A stretch of 64,000 nucleotides of DNA from an uncultured Clostridia bacterium (lineage in GTDB: Bacteria; Bacillota; Clostridia; Oscillospirales; Oscillospiraceae): NCBI GenBank assembly GCA_946186375.1, contig CAMHMZ010000001.1:1-64000 (forward strand). Direction: 5' to 3'. Under the pieces are notes generated by a model. It ran no database searches, was not told where the DNA came from, and saw only the letters and a list, made by a program, of their open reading frames with translations. Position 1 is the stretch's first letter; every line of letters begins with the position of its first letter. Made by a program: the position numbers and the translations under genes. This document shows positions 6,862-51,575 of this stretch, in pieces.

Positions 6862-8196
6862 ATCGAGATCACCATTCCGCCTGGCGCGCAAGAGATCATG
6901 GACGCGCTGGAAAGTAAAAAATACGAAGCTTTTGTTGTTGGCGGCTGTGTGCGCGACAGCATGATGGGGAAGCAGCCGAGCGACTGGGACATTTGCACCA
7001 GTGCAAAGCCGGAGCAAGTAAAAGCGGCTTTATGCGATCATCGCATCATCGAGACTGGCATCAAGCACGGAACTGTAACTGTATTGACCGATGACGGAAG
7101 CTATGAGGTAACAACATATAGAACGGAATCCAGCTATTCAGATCACAGGCATCCGGACAAGGTGGAATTCACGCCATATCTTCTTGCCGATCTGGCAAGG
7201 CGTGACTTCACGGTCAACGCAATGGCGTACAATAAAAGGTTGGGCCTGGTCGATTGGTTTGGTGGCAAAAAGGATCTGCAAGCAAAGGTCATCAAATGTG
7301 TCGGCGATCCGAATGAACGGTTCAAGGAAGACGCACTCCGCATCCTGAGAGCGCTGCGTTTTGCCGCGACCTACGGCTTCACGATCGATGAGGAAACATA
7401 CATAGCAGCCCGATCAAACAAGGCCTTACTTCAAAAGATCTCTGCAGAACGCATCAGCTCGGAACTAACAAAGCTGCTATGTGGCAAGTATGCGTACGCA
7501 GTGCTTAAGAACTATTCTGAAATTGTCACTGAAGTGTTGCCGGAATTAAAACCGTGCATCGGTTTCGAGCAAAACAGTCTATATCATGACTGCGACGTAT
7601 ACGAGCACATCATCCGTTCTGTCGCTGTGTATGACGGCCATTGGCCGGTTATCAAGTGGGCGTTGCTCCTTCACGACATCGGTAAGCCAGCGTGTTACAC
7701 AGAAGACGAGACCGGCGGGCATTTCCGCGGTCACGAGTTGATAGGCGCCGAGATGGCCAAAAGCATTTTGGAGCGCTTACGCTTTGATAACGAGTCAAAA
7801 GCGGCTGTGGTTCAACTTGTGAGAGAACACAACAGACACATCGAGCCGAACCGCGCAAGCGTGCAAAAGCTGATGAGTGAGTTAGGCGAAGAACAGACAA
7901 GAAGGCTGTTGAAAGTCCGGCGCGCAGATCAGACAGCTCACGCCGAGGGAACCAGGCATCTGTACAAAGTCGATCGACTGGAAGCCATCGTCAACGGGAT
8001 CATAAAAGACGAGGCCTGCTTTCAAATCAAAGATTTGGACATTGATGGCCACGATCTGATGGTACTGGGCATTCCAGAAGGCCCGCAGATTGGAACCATC
8101 ATGAAGAAGCTGCTGAACGATGTGATTTTCGGAGAAGCAGAAAACAGAAAAAGCGCTCTTTTAGAGCGGGCAAAAGAATATTTAAGGAGGAATTGA
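6862..8196 (+). CDS. cca: CCA-adding tRNA nucleotidyltransferase with HD domain, probable ATC start
   Basis: Adds or repairs the 3' CCA of tRNAs. Motifs: VGGCVRD and DWD (catalytic metal site), RRDFTVNAMAYN, RILRALRFAATYGF, then an HD domain with HDIGKP. The first ATG (6898) has only a weak upstream AAGAG. A strong AAAGGGGTGA ends six bases before ATC 6862, and reading from there adds IEITIPPGAQEI, the usual N-terminal strand of this family. ATC is therefore the most likely start (444 aa). At least two tRNAs here lack an encoded CCA, so the enzyme has local work. It is followed by a lipoprotein gene one base after its stop. Confidence 0.93.
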   Translation: MEITIPPGAQEIMDALESKKYEAFVVGGCVRDSMMGKQPSDWDICTSAKPEQVKAALCDHRIIETGIKHGTVTVLTDDGSYEVTTYRTESSYSDHRHPDKVEFTPYLLADLARRDFTVNAMAYNKRLGLVDWFGGKKDLQAKVIKCVGDPNERFKEDALRILRALRFAATYGFTIDEETYIAARSNKALLQKISAERISSELTKLLCGKYAYAVLKNYSEIVTEVLPELKPCIGFEQNSLYHDCDVYEHIIRSVAVYDGHWPVIKWALLLHDIGKPACYTEDETGGHFRGHELIGAEMAKSILERLRFDNESKAAVVQLVREHNRHIEPNRASVQKLMSELGEEQTRRLLKVRRADQTAHAEGTRHLYKVDRLEAIVNGIIKDEACFQIKDLDIDGHDLMVLGIPEGPQIGTIMKKLLNDVIFGEAENRKSALLERAKEYLRRN

Positions 8197-11179: not shown

Positions 11180-11257
11180 GCTCCCATCGACTAGCTGGCC
11201 AAGGTCGCGGCCCTTTCACGGCTGAAACGCTCGGTTCGAATCCGGCTGGGAGTACCA
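11180..11257 (+). tRNA. tRNA-Glu (TTC)
   Basis: First tRNA of the array. Acceptor GCTCCCA/TGGGAGT, anticodon loop CTTTCAC, encoded CCA. Confidence 0.9.
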
Positions 11258-11264
11258 CAAATAT

Positions 11265-11351
11265 GGGTCGGTATGCCTAGCGGCGAGGGCAGGGGACTGT
11301 AAATCCCTAACATCGGAAACAACGTTGGTTCGAGTCCAACCCGGCCCACCA
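11265..11351 (+). tRNA. tRNA-Tyr (GTA)
   Basis: Acceptor GGGTCGG/CCGGCCC, loop CTGTAAA, long variable arm, encoded CCA. Confidence 0.95.
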
Positions 11352-11365
11352 AAGGGGATAGTTAA

Positions 11366-11635
11366 ATGTTCTATAATGTTGTGATTGGAAAGCCGGTCGT
11401 AGATCCGCAGTTGCTTCTCGCTGTCAGCGAAGAGGACTGGGAAAGGAACGAAAAGCCAAACACATTGTTCACAGAGACACGCTTTCTTCCAGCGGTTCTG
11501 AAAGAGACCGGTGTGGTTTCGTCAACAGGGGAAGTAAGACGAAATCGGCCTGACCTGGTGAGAACGTTGGATTCACTCGATTGCTTCCAGGTGAAATGGG
11601 GCAAGAAATTCTTATACATTGTTGTAGGAAACTGA
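11366..11635 (+). CDS. hypothetical protein inside the tRNA array (89 aa)
   Basis: MFYNVVIGKPVVDPQ... ends two bases before tRNA-Pro begins. AAAGGGGATAG precedes ATG 11366. Sequence suggests a small alpha/beta domain (RNRPDLVRTLDSLDCFQVKWGKKFLYIVVGN). Not recognised. Its mRNA would be cut from flanking tRNAs during processing. Confidence 0.7.
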   Translation: MFYNVVIGKPVVDPQLLLAVSEEDWERNEKPNTLFTETRFLPAVLKETGVVSSTGEVRRNRPDLVRTLDSLDCFQVKWGKKFLYIVVGN

Positions 11636-11636
11636 T

Positions 11637-11709
11637 CCAGGTGTGGCGCAGTTGGTAGTGCGCGTGATTTGGGATTACGAGGTCGCCGGTTCGAGCCCGG
11701 TCACTTGGT
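11637..11709 (+). tRNA. tRNA-Pro (TGG), no encoded CCA
   Basis: Acceptor CCAGGTG/CACTTGG, loop TTTGGGA. The 3' side reads T then TCACC, so CCA must be added enzymatically. Confidence 0.88.
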
Positions 11710-11783
11710 TCACCGAGAGTTGTGCTCGATCAGCAGTGAAAGTTAAAAGCTTCACTGTGGATATGCGTTCATCTCTCACACAT

Positions 11784-11857
11784 ACCCGCTTCGTATATCG
11801 GTAGTACAACTGGCTCTGACCCAGTTGGGCGTGGTTCGACTCCATGAGCGGGTGCCA
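11784..11857 (+). tRNA. tRNA-Gln (CTG)
   Basis: Acceptor ACCCGCT/AGCGGGT, loop CTCTGAC, encoded CCA. The 75-base spacer before it can close as GAGAG/CTCTC around a CAGTGAA/TTCACTG hairpin. Confidence 0.93.
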
Positions 11858-11860
11858 TAT

Positions 11861-11934
11861 AGGGGCGTCATCTAACGGTAGGATAGCGGTCTCCAAAACC
11901 GTACATGAGAGTTCGATTCTTTCCGCCCCTGCCA
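11861..11934 (+). tRNA. tRNA-Trp (CCA)
   Basis: Acceptor AGGGGCG/CGCCCCT, loop CTCCAAA, encoded CCA. Confidence 0.95.
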
Positions 11935-12011
11935 TGCCCTCCGAGATTTGAGGATCGTCGGTGAAAGCTCGTTCTTCGCGGAGAAATGAGAAAGGGAAAA
12001 CAGAACAATAT

Positions 12012-12103
12012 GCGGGATTACCCAAGTGGTTGAAGGGGCCGGTCTTGAAAACCGGAAGGGCGTTAACAGCGCCGCGGGGGTTCGAATCCCTCATCCCGCG
12101 CCA
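12012..12103 (+). tRNA. tRNA-Ser (TGA)
   Basis: Acceptor GCGGGAT/ATCCCGC, loop CTTGAAA, class II variable arm, encoded CCA. Confidence 0.95.
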
Positions 12104-12246
12104 GCGGAGTGCGAGCGATTGCGGCCCGGTTAGCTACCGGGTGCGGCTTACACCTGTGTCGTACGTCGAGCGGCTGTGCTGCAGTAAACAGCGATGCAAC
12201 GGCGGTAACGGATCTGCTTCCCCGTGAAGGAAGTAGCGCACTCCGT
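12104..12246 (+). ncRNA. closed structured RNA between tRNAs (143 nt)
   Basis: Begins at the base after the tRNA-Ser CCA. Ends pair as GCGGAGTGCG/CGCACTCCGT. Inside are hairpins CCCGGT/ACCGGG, GCTGT/ACAGC and CTGCTTCC/GGAAGTAG. It is not a tRNA and has no coding frame. Processing of the upstream tRNA 3' end would release its 5' end. Confidence 0.5.
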
Positions 12247-12255
12247 ATTCATAGA

Positions 12256-12309
12256 GGACGAAAGATCGCTCAGTGGTTAGGTGAACCAACACGAAAGTGA
12301 CTAACGTCC
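12256..12309 (+). ncRNA. small closed structured RNA
   Basis: Stem GGACG/CGTCC encloses GGTT/AACC and CAC-GAAA-GTG hairpins, a small three-way junction just before tRNA-Glu(CTC). Confidence 0.3.
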
Positions 12310-12315
12310 AAATCT

Positions 12316-12392
12316 GGTCCGATAGTCAAGTTGGATAAGACGCCGGCCTCTCAAGCCGGAAGCGGCGAGTTCAAGTCTCCCTCGGATCACCA
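12316..12392 (+). tRNA. tRNA-Glu (CTC)
   Basis: Acceptor GGTCCGA/TCGGATC, loop CTCTCAA, encoded CCA; one mismatch in the T stem. Confidence 0.88.
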
Positions 12393-12476
12393 TGGAGCAC
12401 AAACTGAGACGGCTCAGTTACAACTCGCTGGTGCCTGCACCGGTGGAAGTTTTATAACCGTCAAATATACAAATAT

Positions 12477-12552
12477 GTGCTATTAGTTCAGTCGGTAGAA
12501 CACTTGACTTTTAATCAAGGGGTCCGGGGTTCGAGTCCCCGATGGCACACCA
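12477..12552 (+). tRNA. tRNA-Lys (TTT)
   Basis: Acceptor GTGCTAT/ATGGCAC, loop CTTTTAA, encoded CCA. Confidence 0.95.
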
Positions 12553-12654
12553 TGGCCGGTATCCAAGTATCAAGGGCGCTGCAATACGTAGTGCAGTGGC
12601 TCGAAGCAGTCGCGAATGCGCGAGCACGGGTAGGTGGAACTCCTATCACGGCCA
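12553..12654 (+). ncRNA. closed structured RNA between tRNAs (102 nt)
   Basis: Starts right after the tRNA-Lys CCA. Ends pair TGGCCG/CGGCCA. Interior hairpins are CTGCA/TGCAG, TCGCG-AATG-CGCGA and TAGG/CCTA. Same layout as the RNA at 12104. Confidence 0.45.
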
Positions 12655-12663
12655 ACCATATAT

Positions 12664-12748
12664 CTGCGTGTGGTGGAATTGGCATACACGATGGACTTAA
12701 AATCCATCGCCGAAAGGATTGAGGGTTCAACCCCCTCCACGCAGACCA
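12664..12748 (+). tRNA. tRNA-Leu (TAA)
   Basis: Acceptor CTGCGTG/CACGCAG, loop CTTAAAA, class II arm, encoded CCA. Confidence 0.95.
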
Positions 12749-12752
12749 ATTT

Positions 12753-12838
12753 GCCGGTGTGATGGAATGGCAGACGTGACGGACTCAAAATCCGTTCCTG
12801 GCAACAGGGTGTGGGTTCAAGTCCCACCACCGGCACCA
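12753..12838 (+). tRNA. tRNA-Leu (CAA)
   Basis: Acceptor GCCGGTG/CACCGGC, loop CTCAAAA, class II arm, encoded CCA. Confidence 0.95.
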
Positions 12839-13309
12839 TTGCATTCCGTATGGAAGCGACGGCGTGCAATATTAAAACCCGGAAGGTTGGCTTAGAGGCA
12901 GCCATCCTTTAAAGAGTTCATCGCCGCCATAGTCATATGCTGAAAGCGGAGGAAACCCGCCAGGTATATGATAACGATGCATAATAGCATTCGACCCTGA
13001 CCTATGTCGCAACGTACGGCTTAACGGTCAACCATGCATCGCTGGCGCTATGTGTCTGACGAGGCACAGCGTATACGTCATGAGAGAAGATGTATCTATC
13101 GTATACGCGCCAGAGGAACATCTTCGGTGGATGATTTGGCGTAACAGCACACCGGGACCAAAAGCATGTGTGAATTCCAGCATGGAAGAGGTGGCCAGAC
13201 TGTGAACTGCGGGCAGAACCTTCGACGGTCGAACGCCGCTTTCCCACATGCAAACAACTCAGCGGTGAAGCAGTAGAATAACAGCTTCGCCGCTGAATAA
13301 AGCGAATAT
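12839..13309 (+). ncRNA. large structured RNA region containing a 23S rRNA GTPase-centre-like segment
   Basis: 471 bases between two tRNA-Leu genes with no convincing coding frame and many strong stems: ATTGCA/TGCAAT at its start, TCATAT/ATATGA with GCGG/CCGC, CTGGCGC/GCGCCAG (13042-13113) around GCGTATACG/CGTATACGC, and a 13-bp stem at 13259-13296. Bases 12885-12916 match 31 of 32 bases of bacterial 23S helix 43 and its 3' flank; 12976-12990 resembles helix 44. Size and tRNA-side position recall the ROOL and GOLLD classes of large phage RNAs. Class assignment is not proven. Confidence 0.6.
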
Positions 13310-13396
13310 GCATCCGTGGCGGAATTGGAATACGCGCCAGACTAAGGATCTGGTGCCCGAAAGGGCTTGTGAGTTCGAGTCTCACCGGATGCACCA
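13310..13396 (+). tRNA. tRNA-Leu (AAG)
   Basis: Acceptor GCATCCG/CGGATGC, loop CTAAGGA, class II arm, encoded CCA. A34 is rare for bacterial Leu tRNAs and would need deamination to inosine for wide decoding. Confidence 0.93.
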
Positions 13397-13403
13397 GATG
13401 TAT

Positions 13404-13477
13404 TGGGCTATAGTGTAACGGTAACACAACGGACTTTGACTCCGTCGTTTTGGGTTCGAATCCCGATAGCCCAGCCA
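13404..13477 (+). tRNA. tRNA-Gln (TTG)
   Basis: Acceptor TGGGCTA/TAGCCCA, loop CTTTGAC, encoded CCA. Confidence 0.95.
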
Positions 13478-13605
13478 TGCCCGAAAGGGCACAAAGGCTG
13501 CAAAGACTTACGAGTTTCTTGCAGGATGCGACGCGCGCTTGCCCGTCGCAGCACGGCCGGCGAATAGCTGGTACGCGATCGCCGCGGCATTGAGTCTGCT
13601 GTGAT
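13478..13605 (+). ncRNA. row of four hairpins between tRNAs
   Basis: Directly after the tRNA-Gln CCA: TGCCC-GAAA-GGGCA, CTGCAA/TTGCAG, TGCGACG/CGTCGCA and CGGCG/CGCCG. No coding frame is supported. Confidence 0.4.
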
Positions 13606-13609
13606 CGTC

Positions 13610-13733
13610 GCCCGTATAGTTCAAAAAGATACGATCAATAAATTAGAACGCCGGTTCGTAAGCCTGAGACAGCAGGTGGGAGTATTCCTGGGCCGGAGAT
13701 GCACCTTGGAGAATCGGGAAGGGTGCTGCGGGC
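13610..13733 (+). ncRNA. closed structured RNA or decayed tRNA region
   Basis: GCCCG pairs with CGGGC at the ends; AGGTG/CACCT lies inside. The first about 70 bases (GTATAGTTC..., GCCGGTTCGTAAGCC) faintly resemble D- and T-arms, so a decayed tRNA is possible. Confidence 0.3.
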
Positions 13734-13745
13734 AATTTCAAAAAT

Positions 13746-13819
13746 GGTTCCGTAGCCAAGTGGTAAGGCAACTGGCTGCAACCCAGCGATCGTCTGTTCG
13801 ACTCAGACCGGAACCTCCA
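13746..13819 (+). tRNA. tRNA-Cys (GCA)
   Basis: Acceptor GGTTCCG/CGGAACC, loop CTGCAAC, encoded CCA. Confidence 0.95.
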
Positions 13820-13822
13820 TAT

Positions 13823-13912
13823 GCCATCTTGGCAGAGCGGTAATGCGTCCGCCTCGAAAGCGGTAGCCAAGACGAGAGTCTTGCGAAGGTTCGATCCCTT
13901 CAGATGGCGCCA
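13823..13912 (+). tRNA. tRNA-Ser (CGA)
   Basis: Acceptor GCCATCT/AGATGGC, loop CTCGAAA, class II arm, encoded CCA. Confidence 0.95.
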
Positions 13913-13920
13913 GAAAAAAT

Positions 13921-14010
13921 GCCGATGGGCCAGAACGGTAATGGGTCCGTTTGGAAGACGGTAGCCAAGTCGAGAGGCTTGAGAAGGTTCGACTCCTTCC
14001 ATCGGCGCCA
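13921..14010 (+). tRNA. tRNA-Ser (GGA)
   Basis: Acceptor GCCGATG/CATCGGC, loop TTGGAAG, class II arm, encoded CCA. Confidence 0.95.
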
Positions 14011-14034
14011 AAAAATGAAAGGTGGTGAACATTC

Positions 14035-14535
14035 ACGGGCAAACTATTCACACGGCCAAATGGTCAAAAAGTATCTATTCCGGAAATCGCAGAAATTGTT
14101 GCACAATACATCGCAACAAATCCTCTCGCAAAATACTCCATCACAGTCGGAACAGACAGCCAGACATACGATCACACAAAGATAGCAGAAGTCGTTGCTG
14201 TACACAGAGTCGGGGCGGGTGGGATCTTCTTCTACCGCATTTCTCATGTAAACAGGATCGACAATCTGCGGCTGAAGATTCAGACGGAAACTCAATGCAG
14301 TCTCAGTATTGCAGACGAGCTTCTAACGTCAATCGAGTTGGATCTGCTCGAGCATGAGCTTGACATAGACGCTCTGGATGTTCACTTCGGTATTCACTGC
14401 GACGTTGGCTACAACGGCAGCACAAAGGCACTGATTCAGGAAATCGTAGGTTGGGTTCAGAGCCTCGGTTACGAATGCAGAATCAAGCCTGATAGCTACG
14501 CTGCAAGTGCTGTTGCTGACAGACTCAGCAAGTAA
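14035..14535 (+). CDS. YkuK-like RNase H-fold protein (DUF458 type), probable ACG start
   Basis: 166 residues: GKLFTRPNGQKV at the N-terminus, a YSITVGTDSQTY strand with the first acidic residue of the RNase H-like fold, IQTETQCSLSIADELL, HFGIHCDVGYNGSTKALIQEIVGWV, and the typical C-terminus RIKPDSYAASAVADRLSK. An in-frame TGA at 14026 forbids a start further upstream, and no ATG, GTG or TTG lies before the conserved region. AAAGGTGGTGA ends six bases before ACG 14035, which puts the start exactly before GKLF. The family is linked to RNase H-like nucleases; its place inside a tRNA array suggests RNA work, which is inference. Confidence 0.8.
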   Translation, partial: TGKLFTRPNGQKVSIPEIAEIVAQYIATNPLAKYSITVGTDSQTYDHTKIAEVVAVHRVGAGGIFFYRISHVNRIDNLRLKIQTETQCSLSIADELLTSIELDLLEHELDIDALDVHFGIHCDVGYNGSTKALIQEIVGWVQSLGYECRIKPDSYAASAVADRLSK

Positions 14536-14578
14536 CGGGAGTAACCGGGAAAAATTATTCTGAGGAATAAACAAAAAA

Positions 14579-14600
14579 GGGCGGTGGTGATCCGCCGCCC
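14579..14600 (+). terminator. hairpin after the YkuK-like gene
   Basis: GGGCGGTG/CGCCGCCC with a six-base loop. No T run follows, so it may be a processing or stabilising stem. Confidence 0.45.
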
Positions 14601-14610
14601 ACGTAAATAT

Positions 14611-14701
14611 GGAGTAGTACCCAAGCTGGTGAAGGGGCCTCCCTGCTAAGGAGGTAGGCACAGAAATGTGTGCAAGCGTTCGAGTCGCTTCTACTCCGCC
14701 A
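14611..14701 (+). tRNA. tRNA-Ser (GCT)
   Basis: Acceptor GGAGTAG/CTACTCC, loop CTGCTAA, class II arm, encoded CCA. Confidence 0.95.
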
Positions 14702-14722
14702 TTTTTCAGAAAGGAATGTACT

Positions 14723-14902
14723 ATGTCAAACAGAGAATTTATGCAAACGCTGGACACAGCAAGGTTTGAGGCGGCTATGCATGCAATCTATTTCGAAGGT
14801 TATATCAAAAAGGGGAGCACGCCGAGTTGCATTGATGTTGTCGCGTGGCTACATGATGATTGCACTAAGCACCAATTATTCTGGAACAAGGTACTGAATT
14901 AG
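14723..14902 (+). CDS. hypothetical protein inside the tRNA array (59 aa)
   Basis: MSNREFMQTLDTARFEAAM... with CAGAAAGGAATG upstream of ATG 14723. Contains a WLHDDCTKH segment. Not recognised. Confidence 0.6.
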   Translation: MSNREFMQTLDTARFEAAMHAIYFEGYIKKGSTPSCIDVVAWLHDDCTKHQLFWNKVLN

Positions 14903-14995
14903 AGTTCACTGAACTCAAATTCAGCAAAAAGAAGAATATCAAATTCAAACGGAAGAATGCCAAAATCATTCGATATATTTCTGTTTGCGAAACAT

Positions 14996-15084
14996 GCATC
15001 GGTGACGAAATTGGTATACGTGCCAGCTTCAGGTGCTGGTTTGCCGAAAGGTGAATGCGAGTTCGAATCTCGCCCGATGTACCA
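14996..15084 (+). tRNA. tRNA-Leu (CAG)
   Basis: Acceptor GCATCGG/CCGATGT, loop TTCAGGT, class II arm, encoded CCA. Confidence 0.95.
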
Positions 15085-15091
15085 GCAGTAT

Positions 15092-15167
15092 GCCTCGGTA
15101 GCTCAGTTGGTAGAGCAGGGGACTGAAAATCCCCGTGTCGCCAGTTCGATTCTGGCCTGAGGCACCA
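15092..15167 (+). tRNA. tRNA-Phe (GAA)
   Basis: Acceptor GCCTCGG/CTGAGGC, loop CTGAAAA, encoded CCA. A 12-bp A/T-rich hairpin (AAACGAAAAAAT and its complement) follows. Confidence 0.95.
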
Positions 15168-15220
15168 AACGAAAAAATATCAAAGCGGATCGACATTTTT
15201 TCGTTTACGAAAAAGTATTT

Positions 15221-15305
15221 GCCCGAATGGCGGAATTGGTAGACGCGCCGGACTTAGGATCCGGTGTTGCAAAACGTGAGGGTTCAAATCCCTTTTCGGG
15301 TACCA
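15221..15305 (+). tRNA. tRNA-Leu (TAG)
   Basis: Acceptor GCCCGAA/TTCGGGT, loop CTTAGGA, class II arm, encoded CCA. Confidence 0.95.
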
Positions 15306-15308
15306 GGG

Positions 15309-15417
15309 GAGCGGGAGGACACGTTCGATTCGGTAGCACGCGGTGTGCATCATTGGGCCAAGGAACCTCAGTGAAGGACGGTTCGATTCCGGTTAGTGTA
15401 GTGGCGCACGCCCGCTC
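15309..15417 (+). ncRNA. closed structured RNA with two T-loop-like motifs
   Basis: Ends pair GAGCGGG/CCCGCTC. The interior carries two TTCGATT loops, one flanked by ACGG/CCGGT like a tRNA T-arm. The rest does not fold as a tRNA and no anticodon arm is seen. Confidence 0.45.
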
Positions 15418-15433
15418 TGTTCCTTCGCAGTAT

Positions 15434-15511
15434 ATCCCATTAGCTCAGTGGGATCAGAGCATCAGATTCCGGTTCTGAAGGCGGATGGTTCAAATCCATT
15501 ATGGGATGCCA
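15434..15511 (+). tRNA. tRNA-Arg (CCG)
   Basis: Acceptor ATCCCAT/ATGGGAT, loop TTCCGGT, encoded CCA. Confidence 0.93.
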
Positions 15512-15517
15512 AAATAT

Positions 15518-15593
15518 GCAGCAGTAGCTCAATCGGCAGAGCATCGGCTTCCCAAGCCGGGGGTTGCGGGTTCGAGCCCCGTTTGCTGCTCCA
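15518..15593 (+). tRNA. tRNA-Gly (CCC)
   Basis: Acceptor GCAGCAG/TTGCTGC, loop TTCCCAA, encoded CCA that abuts the next tRNA. Confidence 0.93.
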
Positions 15594-15672
15594 GCGCCGT
15601 TAGCTCAATCGGATTTAGAGCGTGTGGCCACGGACCACGAGGTTGCGGGTTCGAGTCCTGCACGGCGTTCCA
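15594..15672 (+). tRNA. tRNA-Arg (ACG)
   Basis: Acceptor GCGCCGT/ACGGCGT, loop CCACGGA, encoded CCA; no gap to either neighbour. A34 would be edited to inosine by host TadA. Confidence 0.93.
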
Positions 15673-15749
15673 ACGCTCTTAGCTCAGCGGACAAGAGCAG
15701 GCGGCTCCTATCCGTCAGGTCGCGAGTTCGAATCTCGCAGAGCGTTCCA
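15673..15749 (+). tRNA. tRNA-Arg (CCT)
   Basis: Acceptor ACGCTCT/AGAGCGT, loop CTCCTAT, encoded CCA. Confidence 0.93.
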
Positions 15750-15756
15750 GAAACAT

Positions 15757-15833
<77 letters not shown>

Positions 15834-15834
15834 C

Positions 15835-15920
15835 GTGCCCATGGCGGAAAGGTTATACGCGTGCCCGATTAGCGGACATGCCTATGGGGCTGTGAAGGGT
15901 TCGATTCCCTTCTGGGCACA
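15835..15920 (+). tRNA. aberrant tRNA-like unit, class II, identity uncertain
   Basis: Acceptor GTGCCCA/TGGGCAC, a Leu-type D-arm and T-arm AAGGG-TTCGATT-CCCTT are sound. The anticodon arm reads GTGCCCG-ATTAG-CGGACAT: aligned to tRNA-Leu the loop is GATTAGC with TTA at anticodon positions but no U33, and the stem has a C-A mismatch. No CCA follows. Either a decaying tRNA or a specialised one (TTA would pair with UAA). Confidence 0.55.
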
Positions 15921-15924
15921 ATAT

Positions 15925-16000
15925 GCATCTTTAGCTCAGCCGGTAGAGCAACTGACTCTTAATCAGGAGGTCCACGGTTCGATCCCGTGAAGATGCACCA
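15925..16000 (+). tRNA. tRNA-Lys (CTT)
   Basis: Acceptor GCATCTT/AAGATGC, loop CTCTTAA, encoded CCA. The 77-base spacer after it can form TGGG/CCCA and ATAC/GTAT stems. Confidence 0.95.
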
Positions 16001-16077
16001 GCCGCATACACCGAGAGTTTATGGGTTGAGGCCCAAATTGGAGTCCGCAGGGTCGTATAAATATGTGGGCTCACTAT

Positions 16078-16154
16078 GGTGAGATTAGCTCAGTTGGCAG
16101 AGCACCGGATTGTGGTTCCGGGTGTCGTGGGTTCGAGCCCCACATCTCACCCCA
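16078..16154 (+). tRNA. tRNA-His (GTG)
   Basis: Last tRNA of the array. Has the His-specific extra G-1 opposite C73; acceptor GTGAGAT/ATCTCAC, loop TTGTGGT, encoded CCA. Confidence 0.95.
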
Positions 16155-24764: not shown

Positions 24765-24798
24765 AAGCTCACCACAAGATATTGTGGTGAGCTTTTTT
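24765..24798 (+). terminator. transcription attenuator in the nrdD leader
   Basis: AAGCTCACCAC/GTGGTGAGCTT followed by T6, located between the nrdD promoter and its SD. It can only serve to limit read-through into nrdD, so it is a candidate attenuator. Confidence 0.7.
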
Positions 24799-24822
24799 CA
24801 TCATCTGAAAGGGGTAATCAAA

Positions 24823-27800
24823 ATGTATCAAGTCAAGAAAAGAAACGGAAAGGTCGTGGCTTTTGACATCAAGAAGATCGCAGCGGCCGTTGAGAAAGCT
24901 TTCGACGCGACAGAAACGCCTGTCAATCAAGACACACTGGATTTCATTGCGCTGAAAGTAACTGCTGATTTTGCTGGAAAGGTCAAGGACGGCATCATCG
25001 GCATTGAAGATATCCAAGACAGCGTGGAATCTGTTCTGTCCAAAGCAGGTTACGAACATGTGGCCAAAGCGTTCATCCTGTACAGAAAACAGCGTGAACG
25101 CATGCGTAACGCAAGCGGAACGCTCCTTGACTACAAAAGCGTGGTCGATAAGTATTTGAAGGTTGAAGACTGGCGCGTAAAAGAGAACTCCACTGTGACA
25201 TATTCCATTGGTGGACTGATTCTCTCAAACTCTGGCGCCATCACCGCAAATTACTGGCTCAGCGAGATCTACGATAAGGAAATTGCAGACGCTCACCGCA
25301 ACTGCGACTTCCACATCCATGATCTGTCAATGCTTTCTGGTTATTGCGCAGGTTGGAACCTGAAACAGTTGATTCAGGAAGGGCTCGGCGGCGTACCAGG
25401 CAAGATTACTTCTGCGCCGGCTTCGCATCTTTCAACGCTCTGCAATCAGATGGTCAATTTCCTGGGCATCATGCAGAACGAATGGGCTGGCGCACAGGCT
25501 TTCTCCAGTTTCGACACATATCTGGCGCCGTTTGTCAAGAAGGACAATCTGACCTACAAGCAGGTCAAGCAGGCTATCCAGAGTTTCGTTTTCGGTGTAA
25601 ATACGCCATCACGTTGGGGGTGCGTAGACCAGGACACTGAGGTTCTTTCTGTTAATGGGTTCAAGAAGTATGACGAGCTTAAGGAAGGGGACCAAATCTA
25701 TACTTGGAACAACGGGAAACTCGAACTCAACACCGTCAGAAAGGTTGTTGTAAAGCCTTTTGCTGGCAAGTTGCATTCGTATCGCGGCCGTGGTTACGAT
25801 CAGACGGTGACGCCAACGCACAGAATGCTTGTGAAAAAGCACAATGTGGATGAGTATGTCATCAAACACAGCGAAGAAGTGTTTGATTGCACAACTCCGT
25901 ATGCTCTTCCAGTTATGCTTAAGGATTCGTCTTTGCCGAACATTGATCTTTCTGACGCAGAAATCATGCTTGCCGCTATGGTTTACACGGACGGCAACAT
26001 CGATATGCGCGGAAACAATGTTCATAAAGTCAAAATTTTCAAATCATCGAACAGATACGGCGGGGATGAGATTGAACAAATACTCAGCGACATTGGACTT
26101 GAGTACTTCAAAGACGAAAAGACAGATGGATTTGCGCCGTGTGTTGTTTACACAATGTATGGTGACGCAGCTCGTTATATCAAGGATCTCGTTGGCCAGA
26201 AGGGCATGATCGGCAACAAATTTCTTAAAATGAGCAAACGTCAAGCAGATTTATTCCTTCGTACATGGTCACGCTTCGACGGTTCCGCAGAGAGATTCCG
26301 GTGTCAGTTTGATAACGAAGCCATCGCGGACCAGCTTCAGCAGATTGCTATTCTTGCCGGTAGCTGTTCTTATCGATTTGAGAAGAAACTGCCGAGTGGA
26401 AAAACAACAAACTACATCAAGATCAGGCAGGTAGACAATGTTATTCCCAAAGAACGTATTGAAGTGGAATACGACGGTCTTGTCTGGTGCCCGAATGTGG
26501 AAAACGGAACGGCCGTGTTCAGAAAGAATGGAACCGTGTTCATCTCGGGGCAAACGCAGGCTCCATTCTCGAACATCACACTCGACTGGACTGTTCCGGC
26601 AGATCTGAAGGATCTCCCGGCAATCGTTGGTGGCAAAGAGATGGACTTCACCTACGGTGACTGCAAGAAGGAAATGGACATGGTCAACAAGGCGTTCATC
26701 GAGATCATGATTGAAGGTGATGCCAACGGCCGTGGCTTCCAGTATCCTATACCAACATATTCCATCACCCGCGACTTTGATTGGTCTCCAACCGAGAACA
26801 ACAAGCTGCTCTTCGAGATGACTGCCAAGTACGGAACGCCGTACTTCTCCAACTACATCAACTCCGACATGGAGCCGAGCGATGTGAGAAGCATGTGCTG
26901 CCGTCTGCGTCTTGATCTCCGCGAGCTGCGCCGTAAGTCCGGTGGCTTCTTCGGCTCCGGCGAATCTACTGGCTCTATCGGTGTCGTGACCATCAACATG
27001 CCGCGTCTGGCTTATCTCTCTGAGAATGAAGCCGACTTCTACAGGCGTCTGGACAAGCTGATGGATCTCGCTGCCAGGTCTCTCAAGATCAAGCGCGACG
27101 TGATCACAAAACTGCTGGATGCCGGTCTATATCCGTACACCAAGCATTATCTCGGCAACTTCAACAACCACTTCTCCACGATTGGTCTTGTGGGCATGAA
27201 CGAAGCCGGCCTTAATGCCAACTGGATCCGCAAGGATATGACTCACAAGGAGTGCCAGGACTTTGCGAAGCAGGTTCTGGATCACATGCGTGAGCGTCTG
27301 AGCGACTACCAGGAGCAGTACGGTGACCTTTACAATCTGGAAGCCACTCCTGCCGAGTCTACATCGTATCGTTTTGCAAAGCATGACAAGGAAGACTTTC
27401 CGAACATCATCACCGCTGCAGAAGCCGGAGGCAACCCGTACTACACGAACTCTTCTCACCTCCCGGTGAGCTTCACGGATGACGTGTTCGAGGCGCTGGA
27501 TATCCAGGACGATCTGCAGACCAGATACACTTCCGGCACTGTGTTCCATGCGTTCCTCGGCGAAAAACTTCCCACGTGGGAATCTGCTGCAACTCTCGTT
27601 CGCAAGATCGCAGAGAACTACAAGCTGCCGTACTACACGATGTCTCCGACCTACTCCGTCTGCAAGGACCACGGTTACCTGACAGGCGAGCAGTTTATTT
27701 GCCCGCATTGTGGTCAGAGTGCCGAGGTTTACAGCCGCATTACCGGCTACTACCGTCCAGTGCAGAACTGGAACGACGGTAAGGCTCAGGAGTACAAGCA

Positions 27801-28173
27801 GCGCCGTGAGTACACTCCCGGTGGAAAATTCAGGAATATGGAAAAGCGCAATCCGAAAGAGGCCGCCCAAGAGGAGCCGACTTCGGAATGTTCTCAGGAT
27901 ACGTGCCTGATTCAGGCGAAGGCTGAAGAGCCTACAGACATGACTCCGGTGCTCTTTGCTTCCGCGACTTGCCCGAACTGCCGTATGGCTAAAGCCTTCA
28001 TGGACAAGGCCGGATTCCAGTACAAGGAAATCCTGGCTGCCGACAACCTTGGCCTCGTCGACAAGTTCGGCATCCGTCAGGCACCTACGTTGATCGTTCC
28101 GAAAGCGAACGGTGAGTATGAGAAGTACGCTGGTGCTGGAGCTATAAAAGGTTACTTGGACACACTCAAATAA
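24823..28173 (+). CDS. nrdD: anaerobic ribonucleoside-triphosphate reductase NrdD with intein and fused redoxin
   Basis: Makes dNTPs without oxygen. Order: N-terminal ATP-cone (residues about 1-95), catalytic barrel start, an intein (25621-26553), barrel continuation, C-terminal zinc site (SVCKDHGY, FICPHCGQ), glycyl-radical loop RITGYYRPV, then a linker and a glutaredoxin/thioredoxin-like domain with SATCPNCRMAKAF. The redoxin fusion suggests thiol electrons are supplied in cis. The radical Gly loop differs from the common RVCGY. No NrdG activase is in the window; it may be elsewhere or from the host. ATG 24823 follows GAAAGGGG. Confidence 0.95.
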   Translation: MYQVKKRNGKVVAFDIKKIAAAVEKAFDATETPVNQDTLDFIALKVTADFAGKVKDGIIGIEDIQDSVESVLSKAGYEHVAKAFILYRKQRERMRNASGTLLDYKSVVDKYLKVEDWRVKENSTVTYSIGGLILSNSGAITANYWLSEIYDKEIADAHRNCDFHIHDLSMLSGYCAGWNLKQLIQEGLGGVPGKITSAPASHLSTLCNQMVNFLGIMQNEWAGAQAFSSFDTYLAPFVKKDNLTYKQVKQAIQSFVFGVNTPSRWGCVDQDTEVLSVNGFKKYDELKEGDQIYTWNNGKLELNTVRKVVVKPFAGKLHSYRGRGYDQTVTPTHRMLVKKHNVDEYVIKHSEEVFDCTTPYALPVMLKDSSLPNIDLSDAEIMLAAMVYTDGNIDMRGNNVHKVKIFKSSNRYGGDEIEQILSDIGLEYFKDEKTDGFAPCVVYTMYGDAARYIKDLVGQKGMIGNKFLKMSKRQADLFLRTWSRFDGSAERFRCQFDNEAIADQLQQIAILAGSCSYRFEKKLPSGKTTNYIKIRQVDNVIPKERIEVEYDGLVWCPNVENGTAVFRKNGTVFISGQTQAPFSNITLDWTVPADLKDLPAIVGGKEMDFTYGDCKKEMDMVNKAFIEIMIEGDANGRGFQYPIPTYSITRDFDWSPTENNKLLFEMTAKYGTPYFSNYINSDMEPSDVRSMCCRLRLDLRELRRKSGGFFGSGESTGSIGVVTINMPRLAYLSENEADFYRRLDKLMDLAARSLKIKRDVITKLLDAGLYPYTKHYLGNFNNHFSTIGLVGMNEAGLNANWIRKDMTHKECQDFAKQVLDHMRERLSDYQEQYGDLYNLEATPAESTSYRFAKHDKEDFPNIITAAEAGGNPYYTNSSHLPVSFTDDVFEALDIQDDLQTRYTSGTVFHAFLGEKLPTWESAATLVRKIAENYKLPYYTMSPTYSVCKDHGYLTGEQFICPHCGQSAEVYSRITGYYRPVQNWNDGKAQEYKQRREYTPGGKFRNMEKRNPKEAAQEEPTSECSQDTCLIQAKAEEPTDMTPVLFASATCPNCRMAKAFMDKAGFQYKEILAADNLGLVDKFGIRQAPTLIVPKANGEYEKYAGAGAIKGYLDTLK
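25621..26553 (+). mobile_element. intein with LAGLIDADG homing endonuclease in NrdD
   Basis: 311 residues from CVDQDTEVLSVNGF (Cys1 after TPSRWG) to NGTVFISGQ before TQAPF. Block B TPTHRM and a DOD endonuclease motif (LAAMVYTDGNI) are present. The C-terminal residue is Gln rather than Asn and the penultimate His is Gly, a minority but known variant; the +1 residue is Thr. Splicing should restore TPSRWG-TQAPFSN, the normal NrdD active-site region. Confidence 0.9.
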
Positions 28174-29093: not shown

Positions 29094-29601
29094 GCAATAA
29101 AAGCTTACGCTGATGAAGGGTGATAAGGGCGTCGAGATCATCAAAGGCCTCTGCTATCTGCCTTTGCTCATCCAACGAAGATGGAATAATGAAATCTGTA
29201 TTTGATACAAGATTCCAGTCCGCACGAGGCATTTTTGATCCCGAAGATAGATTTGCGACATCATCAAATTGTTGCGTCTGGATCAAACGATAAAGGAATT
29301 CTTTATCCACTCCAACAGGCCGCAAAACCCACCAGTCACCGACTGCAACGCCTGAAAAATCAGGGTTTAGCCAATTGTGCAAGTATGGCCGAAGTTTACC
29401 ATAAAGCACTTGCGTTCCGTCAAAGACAATGCCAGTCTTCTGTGCTTCTTTCAGCCGGACATCCTTATTCAGCCGACCTTCCCCGGCGACTACATCTTCA
29501 TACTCAACGCTTGGAAATTCATCAGATGATAACTGGAAAGCCGACTCTCTCTGTGCAAATTCATAGAACTTACGCTGTTCCCAAGCGTGAGCTCGATCGG
29601 A
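29029..29601 (-). pseudogene. fragment of a type I restriction specificity subunit (HsdS)
   Basis: The minus-strand frame is open from a stop at 29602 with no start. It reads AHAWEQRKFYEFAQRESAFQ, FDGTQVLYGKLRPYLHNW, SGVAVGDWWVLRP, PSSLDEQRQIAEAFDDLDALITLHQRKL: the second target-recognition domain and conserved coiled-coil of HsdS. The last residues are out of family, marking the junction with the integrase fragment. No hsdM or hsdR nearby. Confidence 0.82.
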
Positions 29602-29708
29602 TTAATAGTGACACGGACAGAATGTCTTTTGCGTTATGGTATATCAAAATCAAGAGGACGTTGTCGGCTGATAAAAGTATAATGATCGCCTAATCATAGG
29701 TATACGAA

Positions 29709-35451: not shown

Positions 35452-35588
35452 GCGAACTGGGTAGCGCCGCGCCAAACGAATGACATTCGCAACGAAATCT
35501 GATGAACTCGATGGCTTTGGCAATAAACATTTTGCTGATTTTTGCATATTTTCTGTGTACCGATGCAGTGAAATTGAACGAAATAGCG

Positions 35589-35617
35589 TTGACAAACACA
35601 ACGCAAAAAAGTATAAT
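35589..35617 (+). promoter_or_regulatory. promoter of recG
   Basis: TTGACA, spacer AACACAACGCAAAAAAG, TATAAT: consensus boxes. Confidence 0.9.
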
Positions 35618-35644
35618 ATAGGCAGCTACGAACGGGAGGTGCCT

Positions 35645-37660
35645 GTGCAATTGGATCTGCAAGAACTTGGCGTCACAAATGCAAAAATCAAACAGTTTGA
35701 ATCGCGCGGCATTATGACAGTAGAAGATCTGCTGTCGTTCCTTCCGCGTTGCTATAAAGATTACAGCAAAATCACGGGCATTTTGCCGCCTGATCAGACA
35801 TCATGCATTCGAGTAAAGGTGCTGAGCACAGCATCCAAGAATGCGGGAAAGGTCCCTTACATAACCGCGAACTGCGTCACTGTTGATGGAAAGAACAAGA
35901 TCAATGTCATCTGGTTCCGTTCGCAGTGGATGTATGGGAAGATCCGCGATTTCGTAAATCGGGTCGTTGTGGTAGCAGGCAAGGCAACATACAACGAACA
36001 GTATAACAGCTACAGCATCGCGCAGCCCGAATTGTTTGACACAGAGGATTGTTTAGGTATTTATCCCGTGTACAAAAACATTCAAGGGATGAGCGTCGAT
36101 TATCTGACGGATAAGGTAAAGAAAGCTCTTGCTGTTGGAATGGCCGGAAGCGAGATTATTCCTGACGATATCGTCAAGCGGGAGAACTTCCTTCCGATGC
36201 CGACGGCGCTTCGGTACATTCACACGCCGAAGACGATCGCGGAAAGTGAAGCCGGGAACAGGCGTATCCTGATCAACGATCTGCTTTATTTCGCTTTGCA
36301 CAATGAATTGAACAAAGCGAGCGTTTCCAAGGGGAGTCAGTACAACATCAAGTCTGTTCAGTTGATGAACGAGATCATCGACCGTTTGCCTTACAAGTTG
36401 ACTCCGGATCAAGAAACCGCGGTGAGCGACATGGTCGCGAAGGCAAAAGACGGCCGGCGTCTGCAGGCGCTTCTGCAAGCGGATGTTGGCGCTGGGAAGA
36501 CGATATGTGCCGCTCTTTTGGCGGCGGCTTTTATCGGGAGCGGATACCAGGTGGTGCTGATGGCACCGACGCAGGTTCTGGCACGGCAGCATCTTGACAC
36601 AGTCAAGGAATTGTTTGACCCGCTGAATGTGGAAATCGCTTATCTGGACAGCACACTGAAAACGTCCGAGAGGAAAGCTGTTTTAGCAGAGATATCGAGC
36701 GGGCGTGCGAGTTTTGTCGTCGGAACCCACTCCTGCATCGGAAAAGATGCGGAATACAACGACCTCGCCCTGACGATAGTGGATGAAGAGCACAAATTCG
36801 GCGTCAAGCAGAGAGCGGCTATCGTTCAGAAGGCGGCGGACGGCGTGCACAGCATCACAATGAGCGCTACGCCGATCCCGAGAAGCCTTGCGCAGGTTGT
36901 TTATGGCGACAATCTGCAGCTTTACACGATCCAGACGATGCCTGAGGGAAGAAAGCCGGTTATCACTGGCGTAGCCAAGGACCAGGGCAAGGTGTTCAAA
37001 TTCATTCTCTCCGAAGTGAAGAAGGGGCATCAGATCTATGTTGTTTGCCCATTGATCGATGCGAGTGAAGCTTCCCCGGACATTGAATCTGTGGAGAGCG
37101 TGAGTGAGATGTACCGTTCTGTTTTAGAGCTGTGTGGTGTCAGAGTGGCTACGTTGACAGGCAGAGATGACAAACTCTCAACAGAAAGCATTATCGGCCA
37201 GTTTAAATCTGGTTTTACGGACGTGTTGATCGCTACTACCGTTATAGAGGTCGGCGTGAACGTTCCAAATGCAACGGTCATGGTCATACATAACGCAGAG
37301 CGTTTCGGTTTATCTGGTCTGCACCAACTGAGGGGCCGAGTCGGCCGAGGGAGCGACCAGTCGTATTGTGTTCTCAGAAGCGACAGCGATGACGAAAAAG
37401 CTTTGAATCGTCTGAACGTGCTTTGCACGAGCAGCAACGGCTTCGAGATCGCTGAAGCGGATTTGAAAATGCGCGGCGCCGGAGATTTCCTCGGCACGAG
37501 GCAGTCCGGAGATAATAAATACATCATGCTGATGCTTGCAAACAACAAAGAATATCAGAACGCGGTAGAAATTGCGCGCGAACTGATCGATAGAGGCCCA
37601 AATTGCTGCAAGCTCATGCAGAAAGTAATAGAAGAGCGTATAGCAAACTCGCAGGAGTAA
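35645..37660 (+). CDS. recG: ATP-dependent DNA helicase RecG
   Basis: 671 residues, normal RecG length. N-terminal wedge/OB part, Walker A LLQADVGAGKTICAALL, DEEHKFGVKQR (motif II; usually DEQH), SATPIPRSLAQVVYGDNL, and RGRVGRGSDQSYC near the end, then LKMRGAGDFLGTRQSG. Remodels stalled forks and branched DNA. GTG 35645 follows GGGAGGTG. The next gene starts 41 bases later. A full-length RecG on an element points to autonomous replication. Confidence 0.95.
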   Translation: MQLDLQELGVTNAKIKQFESRGIMTVEDLLSFLPRCYKDYSKITGILPPDQTSCIRVKVLSTASKNAGKVPYITANCVTVDGKNKINVIWFRSQWMYGKIRDFVNRVVVVAGKATYNEQYNSYSIAQPELFDTEDCLGIYPVYKNIQGMSVDYLTDKVKKALAVGMAGSEIIPDDIVKRENFLPMPTALRYIHTPKTIAESEAGNRRILINDLLYFALHNELNKASVSKGSQYNIKSVQLMNEIIDRLPYKLTPDQETAVSDMVAKAKDGRRLQALLQADVGAGKTICAALLAAAFIGSGYQVVLMAPTQVLARQHLDTVKELFDPLNVEIAYLDSTLKTSERKAVLAEISSGRASFVVGTHSCIGKDAEYNDLALTIVDEEHKFGVKQRAAIVQKAADGVHSITMSATPIPRSLAQVVYGDNLQLYTIQTMPEGRKPVITGVAKDQGKVFKFILSEVKKGHQIYVVCPLIDASEASPDIESVESVSEMYRSVLELCGVRVATLTGRDDKLSTESIIGQFKSGFTDVLIATTVIEVGVNVPNATVMVIHNAERFGLSGLHQLRGRVGRGSDQSYCVLRSDSDDEKALNRLNVLCTSSNGFEIAEADLKMRGAGDFLGTRQSGDNKYIMLMLANNKEYQNAVEIARELIDRGPNCCKLMQKVIEERIANSQE

Positions 37661-50531: not shown

Positions 50532-51575
50532 ATCGCAAACATGTATTTCAACCCGTCTGACGGGAAAAAGCTGAATATCAAGTCGATGAATCTGCCGCCT
50601 TTCGCAAAAAGCTGGCTCAATTATCTAATCGTCGAGTTGAACCTTGCCCAAAGAACTGTATTCGACTATGCTGTTTCCGCGACGACATTTCTTCGTTGGA
50701 TCAAAGCTGTTGAGTTGAATATCACAGCGGAACATTTTAAGGAAATCGACGTCTCTGATGTACAGATTGAAGCCGTTGCCGCGCTTAATCGAAATGACAT
50801 CTATGAATTTCTCAGTTTTTGTGCAACGGATCTGAATAATTCGGCGAGCTCCAGAGCCTGTAAGTTGGCGGCTGTTCGCTCCATGTATGATTTCCTGCGC
50901 AACAAGCTCCCAGGCAGCCCGATAAAAGAAAACCCAACGGCGGATATTTCGTCGCCTAAACGGGAACGTCCACTCCCGAAGCATTTGACGACATCTGAGG
51001 CGCAGAAGCTTCTTGCTGCCGTATCAGGAGAGGCTGTTGAACGTGACTATTGCATCATATTGTGGTTCTTATCCTGCGGCATGAGACTTTCTGAGTTGGT
51101 GGCGATTGACAAATCGGACGTAAAAGAGTCAATGCTGAAACTGTACGGAAAAGGCCGTAAAGAGCGCGTAGTCCACTTAAATAAGCCATGCCTTGACGCT
51201 CTTGAAGATTATATGACAGCGAGATCTTATTGGCACAAAGCGGATGATGAGCAGGCATTGTTCGTTTCTAAGAGAACCGGTAAACGGCTTACAGGGCGGC
51301 GTGTAGAACAAATTATAGAAGACACGCTGGCTAAGGCCGGTCTGCAGGGTAACGGATATAGTGTGCACAAGCTAAGGCACAGCACGGCAACGATGCTGTA
51401 CTCGCAACAGCTCGGTTTGCTTGAGATCAAAGAGCTGCTTGGGCATGCTTCGCTGAAATCAACTGAGGTTTATACACACCTGCAAAACAAAACAACAACA
51501 AATAACGCGCTTGAAGCGCTTGGCGACGATTTGGTCGCAAATCAAAAGAAAGGAGTCCTTGACCATGACACATGA
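50532..51575 (+). CDS. XerC/XerD-like tyrosine recombinase, probable ATC start
   Basis: Core-binding domain then catalytic domain with R (CGMRLSEL), K (GKGRKER), HKLRH, LGHAS and Y (TEVYTHL): complete active site. GGAGGTGA ends six bases before ATC 50532 but 15 before the first ATG (50541); ATC fits better. Likely dimer resolution or integration. Its 3' end overlaps the sigma factor start by 11 bases. Confidence 0.93.
   Translation: MANMYFNPSDGKKLNIKSMNLPPFAKSWLNYLIVELNLAQRTVFDYAVSATTFLRWIKAVELNITAEHFKEIDVSDVQIEAVAALNRNDIYEFLSFCATDLNNSASSRACKLAAVRSMYDFLRNKLPGSPIKENPTADISSPKRERPLPKHLTTSEAQKLLAAVSGEAVERDYCIILWFLSCGMRLSELVAIDKSDVKESMLKLYGKGRKERVVHLNKPCLDALEDYMTARSYWHKADDEQALFVSKRTGKRLTGRRVEQIIEDTLAKAGLQGNGYSVHKLRHSTATMLYSQQLGLLEIKELLGHASLKSTEVYTHLQNKTTTNNALEALGDDLVANQKKGVLDHDT

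Follow-up and report, generated by a model that had tools for sequence, protein, structure and literature searches.

Phage RNAs with the fold of the 23S rRNA GTPase-associated centre: an element in a phage tRNA array and its family

The window, by which we denote the whole stretch of 64,000 nt analysed here, is a phage-like contig in a fragmented and incomplete assembly of 3.29 Mb. It carries the following genes, including a tRNA array that holds an RNA element resembling the GTPase-associated centre (GAC) of 23S rRNA:

6898-8196, CCA-adding enzyme (tRNA nucleotidyltransferase), ~3 kb upstream of the tRNA array
11180-16154, array of 26 tRNA genes called by ARAGORN, all on the plus strand, holding the GAC-mimic element
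24784-28173, anaerobic ribonucleotide reductase
35480-37660, helicase
40912-43800, DNA polymerase
50541-51575, integrase

The element sits in a gap of 471 nt between tRNA-Leu(caa) at 12753-12838 and tRNA-Leu(aag) at 13310-13396. A preliminary description of the sequence had matched 12885-12916 to helix 43 and its 3′ flank, and had proposed a covariance-model alignment to 23S rRNA as a check; run with Infernal over 491 bases, this alignment placed positions 1094-1147 of the bacterial LSU rRNA at 12880-12926, with a score of 24.8 bits and E=1e-5 for the stretch searched. Counted by eye against the Rfam bacterial 23S consensus, 12885-12916 corresponds to E. coli 1058-1089 with 31 of 32 positions identical, the equivalent of A1067 (12894) being kept and that of A1070 (12897) being the sole mismatch, just as had been described. 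With the E. coli sequence itself we take 28 of the 32 positions to match, two of the four differences presumably forming the compensatory pair 1058/1080. The element is composed of the following parts:

12878-13156, plus strand, whole GAC-mimic RNA element (the family covariance model described below aligns 12874-13160)
12878-12882, plus strand, 5′ strand of the closing helix (top of helix 42, equivalents of 1051-1055), pairing with 13152-13156
12884-12908, plus strand, helix 43 equivalent (1057-1081), in the Rfam LSU_rRNA_bacteria match at 12880-12926
12909-12917, plus strand, junction strand of the UUUAAAGAGU type (1082-1090 equivalents), with the 1082-1086 tertiary pair kept
12918-13134, plus strand, structured insert, with a basal stem of 5 contiguous pairs (12918-12922 with 13130-13134)
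13139-13148, plus strand, helix 44 equivalent (1091-1100), with A1095 at 13143
13152-13156, plus strand, 3′ strand of the closing helix (1104-1108 equivalents), pairing with 12878-12882

The 47-base LSU match at 12880-12926 lies below the family cut-off and is the only one in the whole assembly; the remainder of an LSU rRNA (~2.9 kb) is absent around it and helix 44 does not directly follow helix 43, in agreement with the earlier view that this is not an rRNA gene. The earlier assignment of helix 44 to 12976-12990 did not hold: this stretch lies inside the variable insert and is not conserved across the family, and we reject it as helix 44. The conserved equivalent is the sequence GGCGTAACAGCACAC, which occupies 13138-13152 and to which the 3′ end of the family model is aligned with high posterior probability. 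The view that a hairpin stands in place of the normal link between the two helices is right in part: an insertion of ~220 nt and several stems lies between the equivalents of U1090 and G1091. The segment 12876-13160 folds with -97.5 kcal/mol (z -3.2).

To find relatives, we searched a phage collection by BLAST; 47-49 records matched similarly over ~30-40 bp, several of them phages without an annotated feature at that place. Among 49 such records, 21 were phages named in this text or, judged by name, their duplicates or siblings; we fetched 12 of these 21 together with Paenibacillus phage Pd_22F and classed the records outside the fetched set from annotation, name or size. In 12 of the 13 fetched records a second block, TTTGGCGTAAYAGCACACC, follows 107-266 nt downstream and corresponds to helix 44 with its 3′ flank (counterpart in the window: 13135-13153), while the thirteenth, Pd_22F, is real 23S rRNA sequence. 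Several short ‘phage’ records of Listeria, Staphylococcus and Salmonella match as rRNA, judged from annotation or small size, which suggests host contamination. Further BLAST searching added Cronobacter phage GAP32, Pectobacterium phage CBB and Vibrio phage 2.275.O as carriers, and another round added none. We then scanned IMG/VR with the 3′ block alone and with the 5′ block alone and paired the halves, allowing at most 5 and 2 substitutions. The same split GAC, whose recurrence in related elements the preliminary description had named as a test, was recovered in 184 of 240 sequences, amounting to at least 185 elements whose scored half-motifs lie 28-446 nt apart, the distance in the window being 222 nt. 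At least 171 of these elements lie in IMG/VR contigs and 12 in named phages, the other two being those of the window and of a copy of the window. At the same stringency, 2 loci among the 240 sequences are real rRNA and 28 contain the 5′ half only; all 28 were later matched by the family covariance model, the second half being missing or unproven in five of them (L029, L162, L187, L193 and L212) because four matches end at the contig end and that of L212 is short.

Phages of Pseudomonas, Xanthomonas, Aeromonas, Acinetobacter, Serratia, Erwinia, Cronobacter, Pectobacterium and Vibrio carry the element, as does a 909-kb replicon of Pseudomonas sp. FeN3W listed as a plasmid (CP136011.1), which may be a giant phage-like replicon. 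The interval 754210-760259 of this replicon contains 12 tRNAs within 6 kb, and the closing helix of the element there is unusually long. In Pseudomonas phage pf16 the element occupies 29414-29606 on the minus strand of KU873925.1. CP136011 was the top match, and the one fetched, among the best 30 of 493 records in the plasmid search; the plasmid matches are probably for the most part 23S rRNA of chromids. On genome contigs, 12 of 17 pattern matches have both halves (5′ half within 600 nt) and 5 do not; the named strain among these carriers is Flintibacter muris DSM 110149, whose element we assume to lie in a prophage. Among 60 genomes related to the host assembly the element was found in one, which is the window's own. 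When 13 named phage and plasmid records, selected for a prior match, were checked over their whole length, all scored, with one match each and two in Astolliot; in the Vibrio phage, whose helix 44 is divergent, the match is weak (44.3 bits) and short. Two copies stand side by side in three loci (L112; L040, 2158-2481; L044, 2158-2481). Those of L112 are both good, whereas Milchi and Astolliot each have a second copy that has diverged strongly (13.8 and 21.1 bits). One further locus (L143), on a carrier phage contig, combines 30 tRNA matches with a cow-rumen-3 RNA and, below the cut-off, a partial match resembling tmRNA, at 7261-7401 and 13484-13591. Across the family, the RNA measures 92-510 nt, and ~280 nt in the window.

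A covariance model built from phage elements only, with the window absent from its training set, aligned over its full length (1-178) to 12874-13160 of the window with 80.7 bits and E=2.1e-22 over the 55 sources searched, E-values of this model being rough according to the tool's own warning. In a run over the whole assembly with stricter handling, the same place was found with a shorter alignment (12874-12968, 54.1 bits). Applied to rRNA loci, the phage-only model recovered the true 23S GAC in 21 of 21 (E=4e-13 to 1e-17). Homology is therefore demonstrated both ways, since the Rfam LSU model finds the element and the phage-only model finds the 23S GAC.

For quantitative comparison, the 185 elements were reduced to 183 by leaving out L036, the copy of the window, and L114, which has no flank, and then to 138 by removing 45 near-duplicates. 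Of the 137 of these outside the window, the 66 with inserts of 60-142 nt were aligned. Because fetching a locus by one pattern inflates the conservation of that half, each half was scored only where the pattern for the opposite half had retrieved the locus, giving two overlapping sets of 70 loci each.

The helices are maintained by compensatory change. The closing helix varies widely in sequence despite its pairing and extends over a mean of 5.57 contiguous pairs, compared with 1.41 when partners are shuffled (maximum 1.72 in 500 shuffles; n=138), and the basal stem of the insert extends over 3.91 compared with 1.20 (maximum 1.46; n=138). In the 66-row alignment, 92.2% of 1581 cells are paired and 20 of 24 pairs show double changes (9 of 9 in the closing helix), and double changes occupy 405 cells, where shuffles give 127. 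Covariation scores 0.612, compared with 0.152 for shuffled and 0.109-0.176 for slid alignments, the slides being the better control because shuffles lose the relatedness of the sequences. The closing helix is not uniform: counted outward from 1054-1105 in a fixed register, 42 of 138 elements have two or fewer contiguous pairs, and the outermost positions are unpaired in 19 of 66 rows. RNAalifold, run unprompted on 15 sequences, recovered helices 43 and 44 together with the closing helix and the stem of the insert. From pair counts and RNAalifold alike, the top of helix 42, helix 43 and helix 44 are joined in a three-way junction.

The tertiary contacts of the GAC are found both in the 138 elements and in the bias-controlled subsets. 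Positions 1082/1086, which we take to form a tertiary pair in the rRNA structure, are U-A in 84 elements, C-G in 30, A-U in 13 and other in 11 (n=138). Positions 1072/1092/1099, presumably a base triple there, are C/C/G in 128, U/U/A in 8 and U/U/G in 2 (n=138), so that 1072 and 1092 always change together; the 5′ patterns do not constrain 1092 and 1099, and among the loci they retrieved the respective counts are 62, 6 and 2. The triple is uninformative in the 66-row alignment (one variant), because most variants carry longer inserts. The 1060-1088 contact occurs only as U-A (133) or U-G (5) and therefore adds little as evidence. Covariation establishes the fold, and we are all but certain that the element represents a genuine family of phage RNAs with the GAC fold. 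The initial finding of a GAC mimic that is not rRNA, placed in a tRNA array, is thus real and larger than had been stated, with covariation and a large phage family behind it, and misplaced in part, namely in helix 44.

The elements are non-coding and share the orientation of neighbouring tRNA genes. Open reading frames of at least 100 codons' product length (≥100 aa) cover 14.2% of element length, compared with 60.8% of the length of random intervals in the same loci. Of the 82 elements whose closing helix has 5 or more pairs, 23 show a T-run behind that helix, where 5.3 are expected. Short hypothetical genes annotated over the element in three loci (L040, 2529-2660; L041, 2572-2679; L047, 2527-2619) look spurious. 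All 327 tRNAs within 1 kb, and all 867 across the loci, lie on the strand of the element; both strands were read, since a reversed control turns all 867 to minus. ARAGORN calls overlap none of the 137 elements, and the window element received neither a tRNA nor a tmRNA call. A tRNA lies within 1 kb of 86 of 137 elements, where positions drawn at random from the same loci would give 66.9, and ARAGORN found none within 1 kb of the other 51 in the sequence examined, nor any in the 5-kb stretches of XacN1, XaC1, BF and GAP32. Linkage to tRNA genes is therefore common and moderately above random, not universal.

Scanning of the tRNA array in the window gave 6 promoters against 5.4 expected (no excess) and 9 terminators against 6.1 (a weak excess). 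Between the element and tRNA-Leu(aag), 13160-13309 forms a second structured segment (-58.2 kcal/mol, z -5.72), close to whose end lies a hairpin of 13 bp; a BLAST search of phage sequences with this segment gave no match at E≤1. Other gaps of the array (12553-12663, 12104-12250 and 13478-13610) fold somewhat better than their shuffles (z -2.0, -1.8 and -2.65), so that several non-coding RNAs may be present in the array, while 13600-13745 (z -1.15) and 15306-15433 (z +1.4) are unremarkable.

The element shares with the GAC of 23S rRNA (E. coli 1051-1108, in Rfam RF02541) the top of helix 42, helices 43 and 44, the 1082-1086 pair, the 1060-1088 contact, the 1072/1092/1099 triple and A1095 at the tip. 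It differs from the GAC in being detached from 23S rRNA, in the 28-446 nt placed between 1090 and 1091, in an unrelated closing helix, in a relaxed tip and at position 1101, which is A in 134 of 138 phage elements and U in E. coli. It does not belong to a known Rfam family: at gathering thresholds a scan of the whole window returned tRNAs only; at the element, E≤10 gave the LSU fragment and two chance-level matches (mir-2756 and GlsR5); at six relatives, E≤1 gave LSU fragments at two elements and otherwise nothing there. Like the phage and prophage RNAs GOLLD and ROOL, it is a structured RNA frequently located close to tRNA islands; unlike them, it is far smaller and built on an rRNA domain, and neither covariance model matched at the element or at the six relatives. 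Passages of PMC12286853 report that GOLLD is pulled down with ribosomes and that OLE RNA was proposed to sequester a ribosomal protein. The autoregulatory leaders of ribosomal proteins resemble the element in that they bind a ribosomal protein by copying its site on rRNA, as the element would. These leaders are rRNA mimics in ribosomal-protein mRNAs and act as cis elements of ribosomal-protein operons; the element is no such leader, no ribosomal-protein gene being annotated in 13 stretches around the elements. The T4 species 1 and 2 RNAs (rnaC and rnaD), to our knowledge without an assigned function, are stable RNAs in a phage tRNA cluster, as the element may be. They are not relatives, a 5-kb T4 stretch giving no match to the family model and showing no visible GAC sequence. 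In the open-access PMC literature we found no report of a GAC-mimic phage RNA, and the class is new as far as our literature searches reach.

Junction bases are nearly fixed across the phage elements. In the 5′ half, scored in loci fetched by the 3′ pattern, A1067 is kept in 51 of 70 and G1068 in 56 of 70; in the 3′ half, scored in loci fetched by the 5′ patterns, A1096 is kept in 55 of 70 and A1095 in 67 of 70. The tip is thus relaxed, and the same positions, which the pattern leaves free, are invariant in the rRNA of the 21 pattern-matching genomes among 101 genomes of the host phylum. The C-terminal domain of ribosomal protein L11 (uL11) grips the GAC junction. A near-unchanged junction with freer tip bases fits a ligand that binds the core, e.g. 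this domain, and we therefore favour capture of L11 over mimicry of the factor or thiopeptide site. Among the decoy targets named in the preliminary description (thiopeptides, L11, RelA or a ribosome-targeting effector), L11 fits best. According to passages of PMC4409310, the isolated 58-nt RNA 1051-1108 folds autonomously, constitutes the L11 binding site and has been crystallized with L11. The domain PF00298 of L11 was found in 0 of 13 carrier records, so that host L11 would be the target; a phage-borne L11/L12 partner was discarded on this ground, an L12 domain being found in 1 of 13 records (UNO-G1W1, partial). Against L11, conservation of the core could arise from folding alone, and L11 may find its site obstructed by the inserted arm. 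We put L11 as the ligand at even odds.

We propose the following mechanism. A free-standing non-coding phage RNA adopts the three-way tertiary structure of the 23S GAC; an arm specific to the phages separates U1090 from G1091, and the helix that closes the molecule is likewise phage-specific. It is probably excised from the tRNA-array transcript and stable, and its likeliest job would be to bind host L11. During infection the RNA would titrate L11, or newly made L11, and the insert may position or protect it. Since L11 is about as abundant as ribosomes, titration would need high levels of the RNA. Loss of L11 function blocks the activation of RelA (relC). What depends on L11 at the host ribosome, the activation of RelA for example, would be weakened, phenocopying relC/rplK mutants; this anti-RelA consequence we consider doubtful. 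For the reading as a whole, in which widespread phage RNAs carry the GAC as a free molecule and take L11 from the ribosomes or the supply of the host, producing a relC-like non-stringent state and translation remodelled for the phage, we estimate a probability of about 0.3.

The insert invites a different emphasis, in which it is the working part and the GAC fold serves as a stable platform or L11-docking handle for a phage-specific effector arm near ribosomes, or as the scaffold of an RNA machine. The insert varies greatly between elements; its length ranges over 28-446 nt, sub-classes carry motifs, for example those resembling CACCCCGGAAACGGTAAGG (29 of 138) and GACCCTTAGAG (18 of 138), and its basal stem begins directly after GAGU in most elements (GT there in 128 of 138). 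In opposition to this, 79 of 138 inserts have none of the three motif classes searched and it is the GAC core that is near-invariant, so that we hold a working insert to be unlikely. Direct capture of RelA, EF-G, IF2 or a ribosome-targeting host effector by a mimic of the factor-binding tip would draw on the retention of A1095 in 67 of 70 elements, RelA, EF-G and IF2 all contacting the A1067/A1095 region on the ribosome. The relaxation of A1067, G1068 and A1096, all fixed in rRNA of the 21 pattern-matching genomes, points the other way, as does the absence from the conserved core of the sarcin-ricin loop and the A-site tRNA, which RelA and the translational GTPases also contact; we regard such capture as quite improbable.

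The RNA might also soak up or divert thiopeptides, acting as a sponge or decoy, or do the same to a nuclease or methyltransferase directed at the GAC in phage defence or competition. A1067 is the drug contact of thiopeptides; it is changed in 19 of 70 elements, at a position that the 3′ pattern leaves free. These members should bind the drug less well, and thiopeptides therefore fit poorly. A sponge would find precedent in the isolated 58-nt RNA, a substrate of A1067 methyltransferases in passages of PMC4409310, and in phage tRNAs, which PMC10264068 and PMC11555353 report to counter tRNA-targeting host defences; on balance we judge a sponge to be very unlikely. The plain kinship with 23S rRNA, the fragmented and incomplete assembly, and matches in the phage collection that are real rRNA, e.g. 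in Pd_22F, could be taken to indicate a captured rRNA fragment or pseudogene, or host contamination or misbinning, without function. The extensive compensatory change in helices and tertiary contacts, A1101 and a fixed insert site throughout the family, the lone LSU match below cut-off and the presence of the element in complete genomes of cultured phages lead us to reject a real rRNA gene, a pseudogene or contamination, and leave such an origin next to no probability.

A domain central to the function of the ribosome can thus be detached from it and carried by phages as an RNA in its own right, selected down to a base triple. The family provides a further reason for the long unexplained gaps in phage tRNA arrays, and the 1090/1091 site shows where nature tolerates RNA grafts on the GAC, which is useful for studies of L11 and thiopeptides. 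The family also opens a testable route by which phages could act on host translation or the stringent response. If L11 capture proves true, a GAC RNA that takes L11 would be the RNA counterpart of phage proteins that hijack the ribosome.
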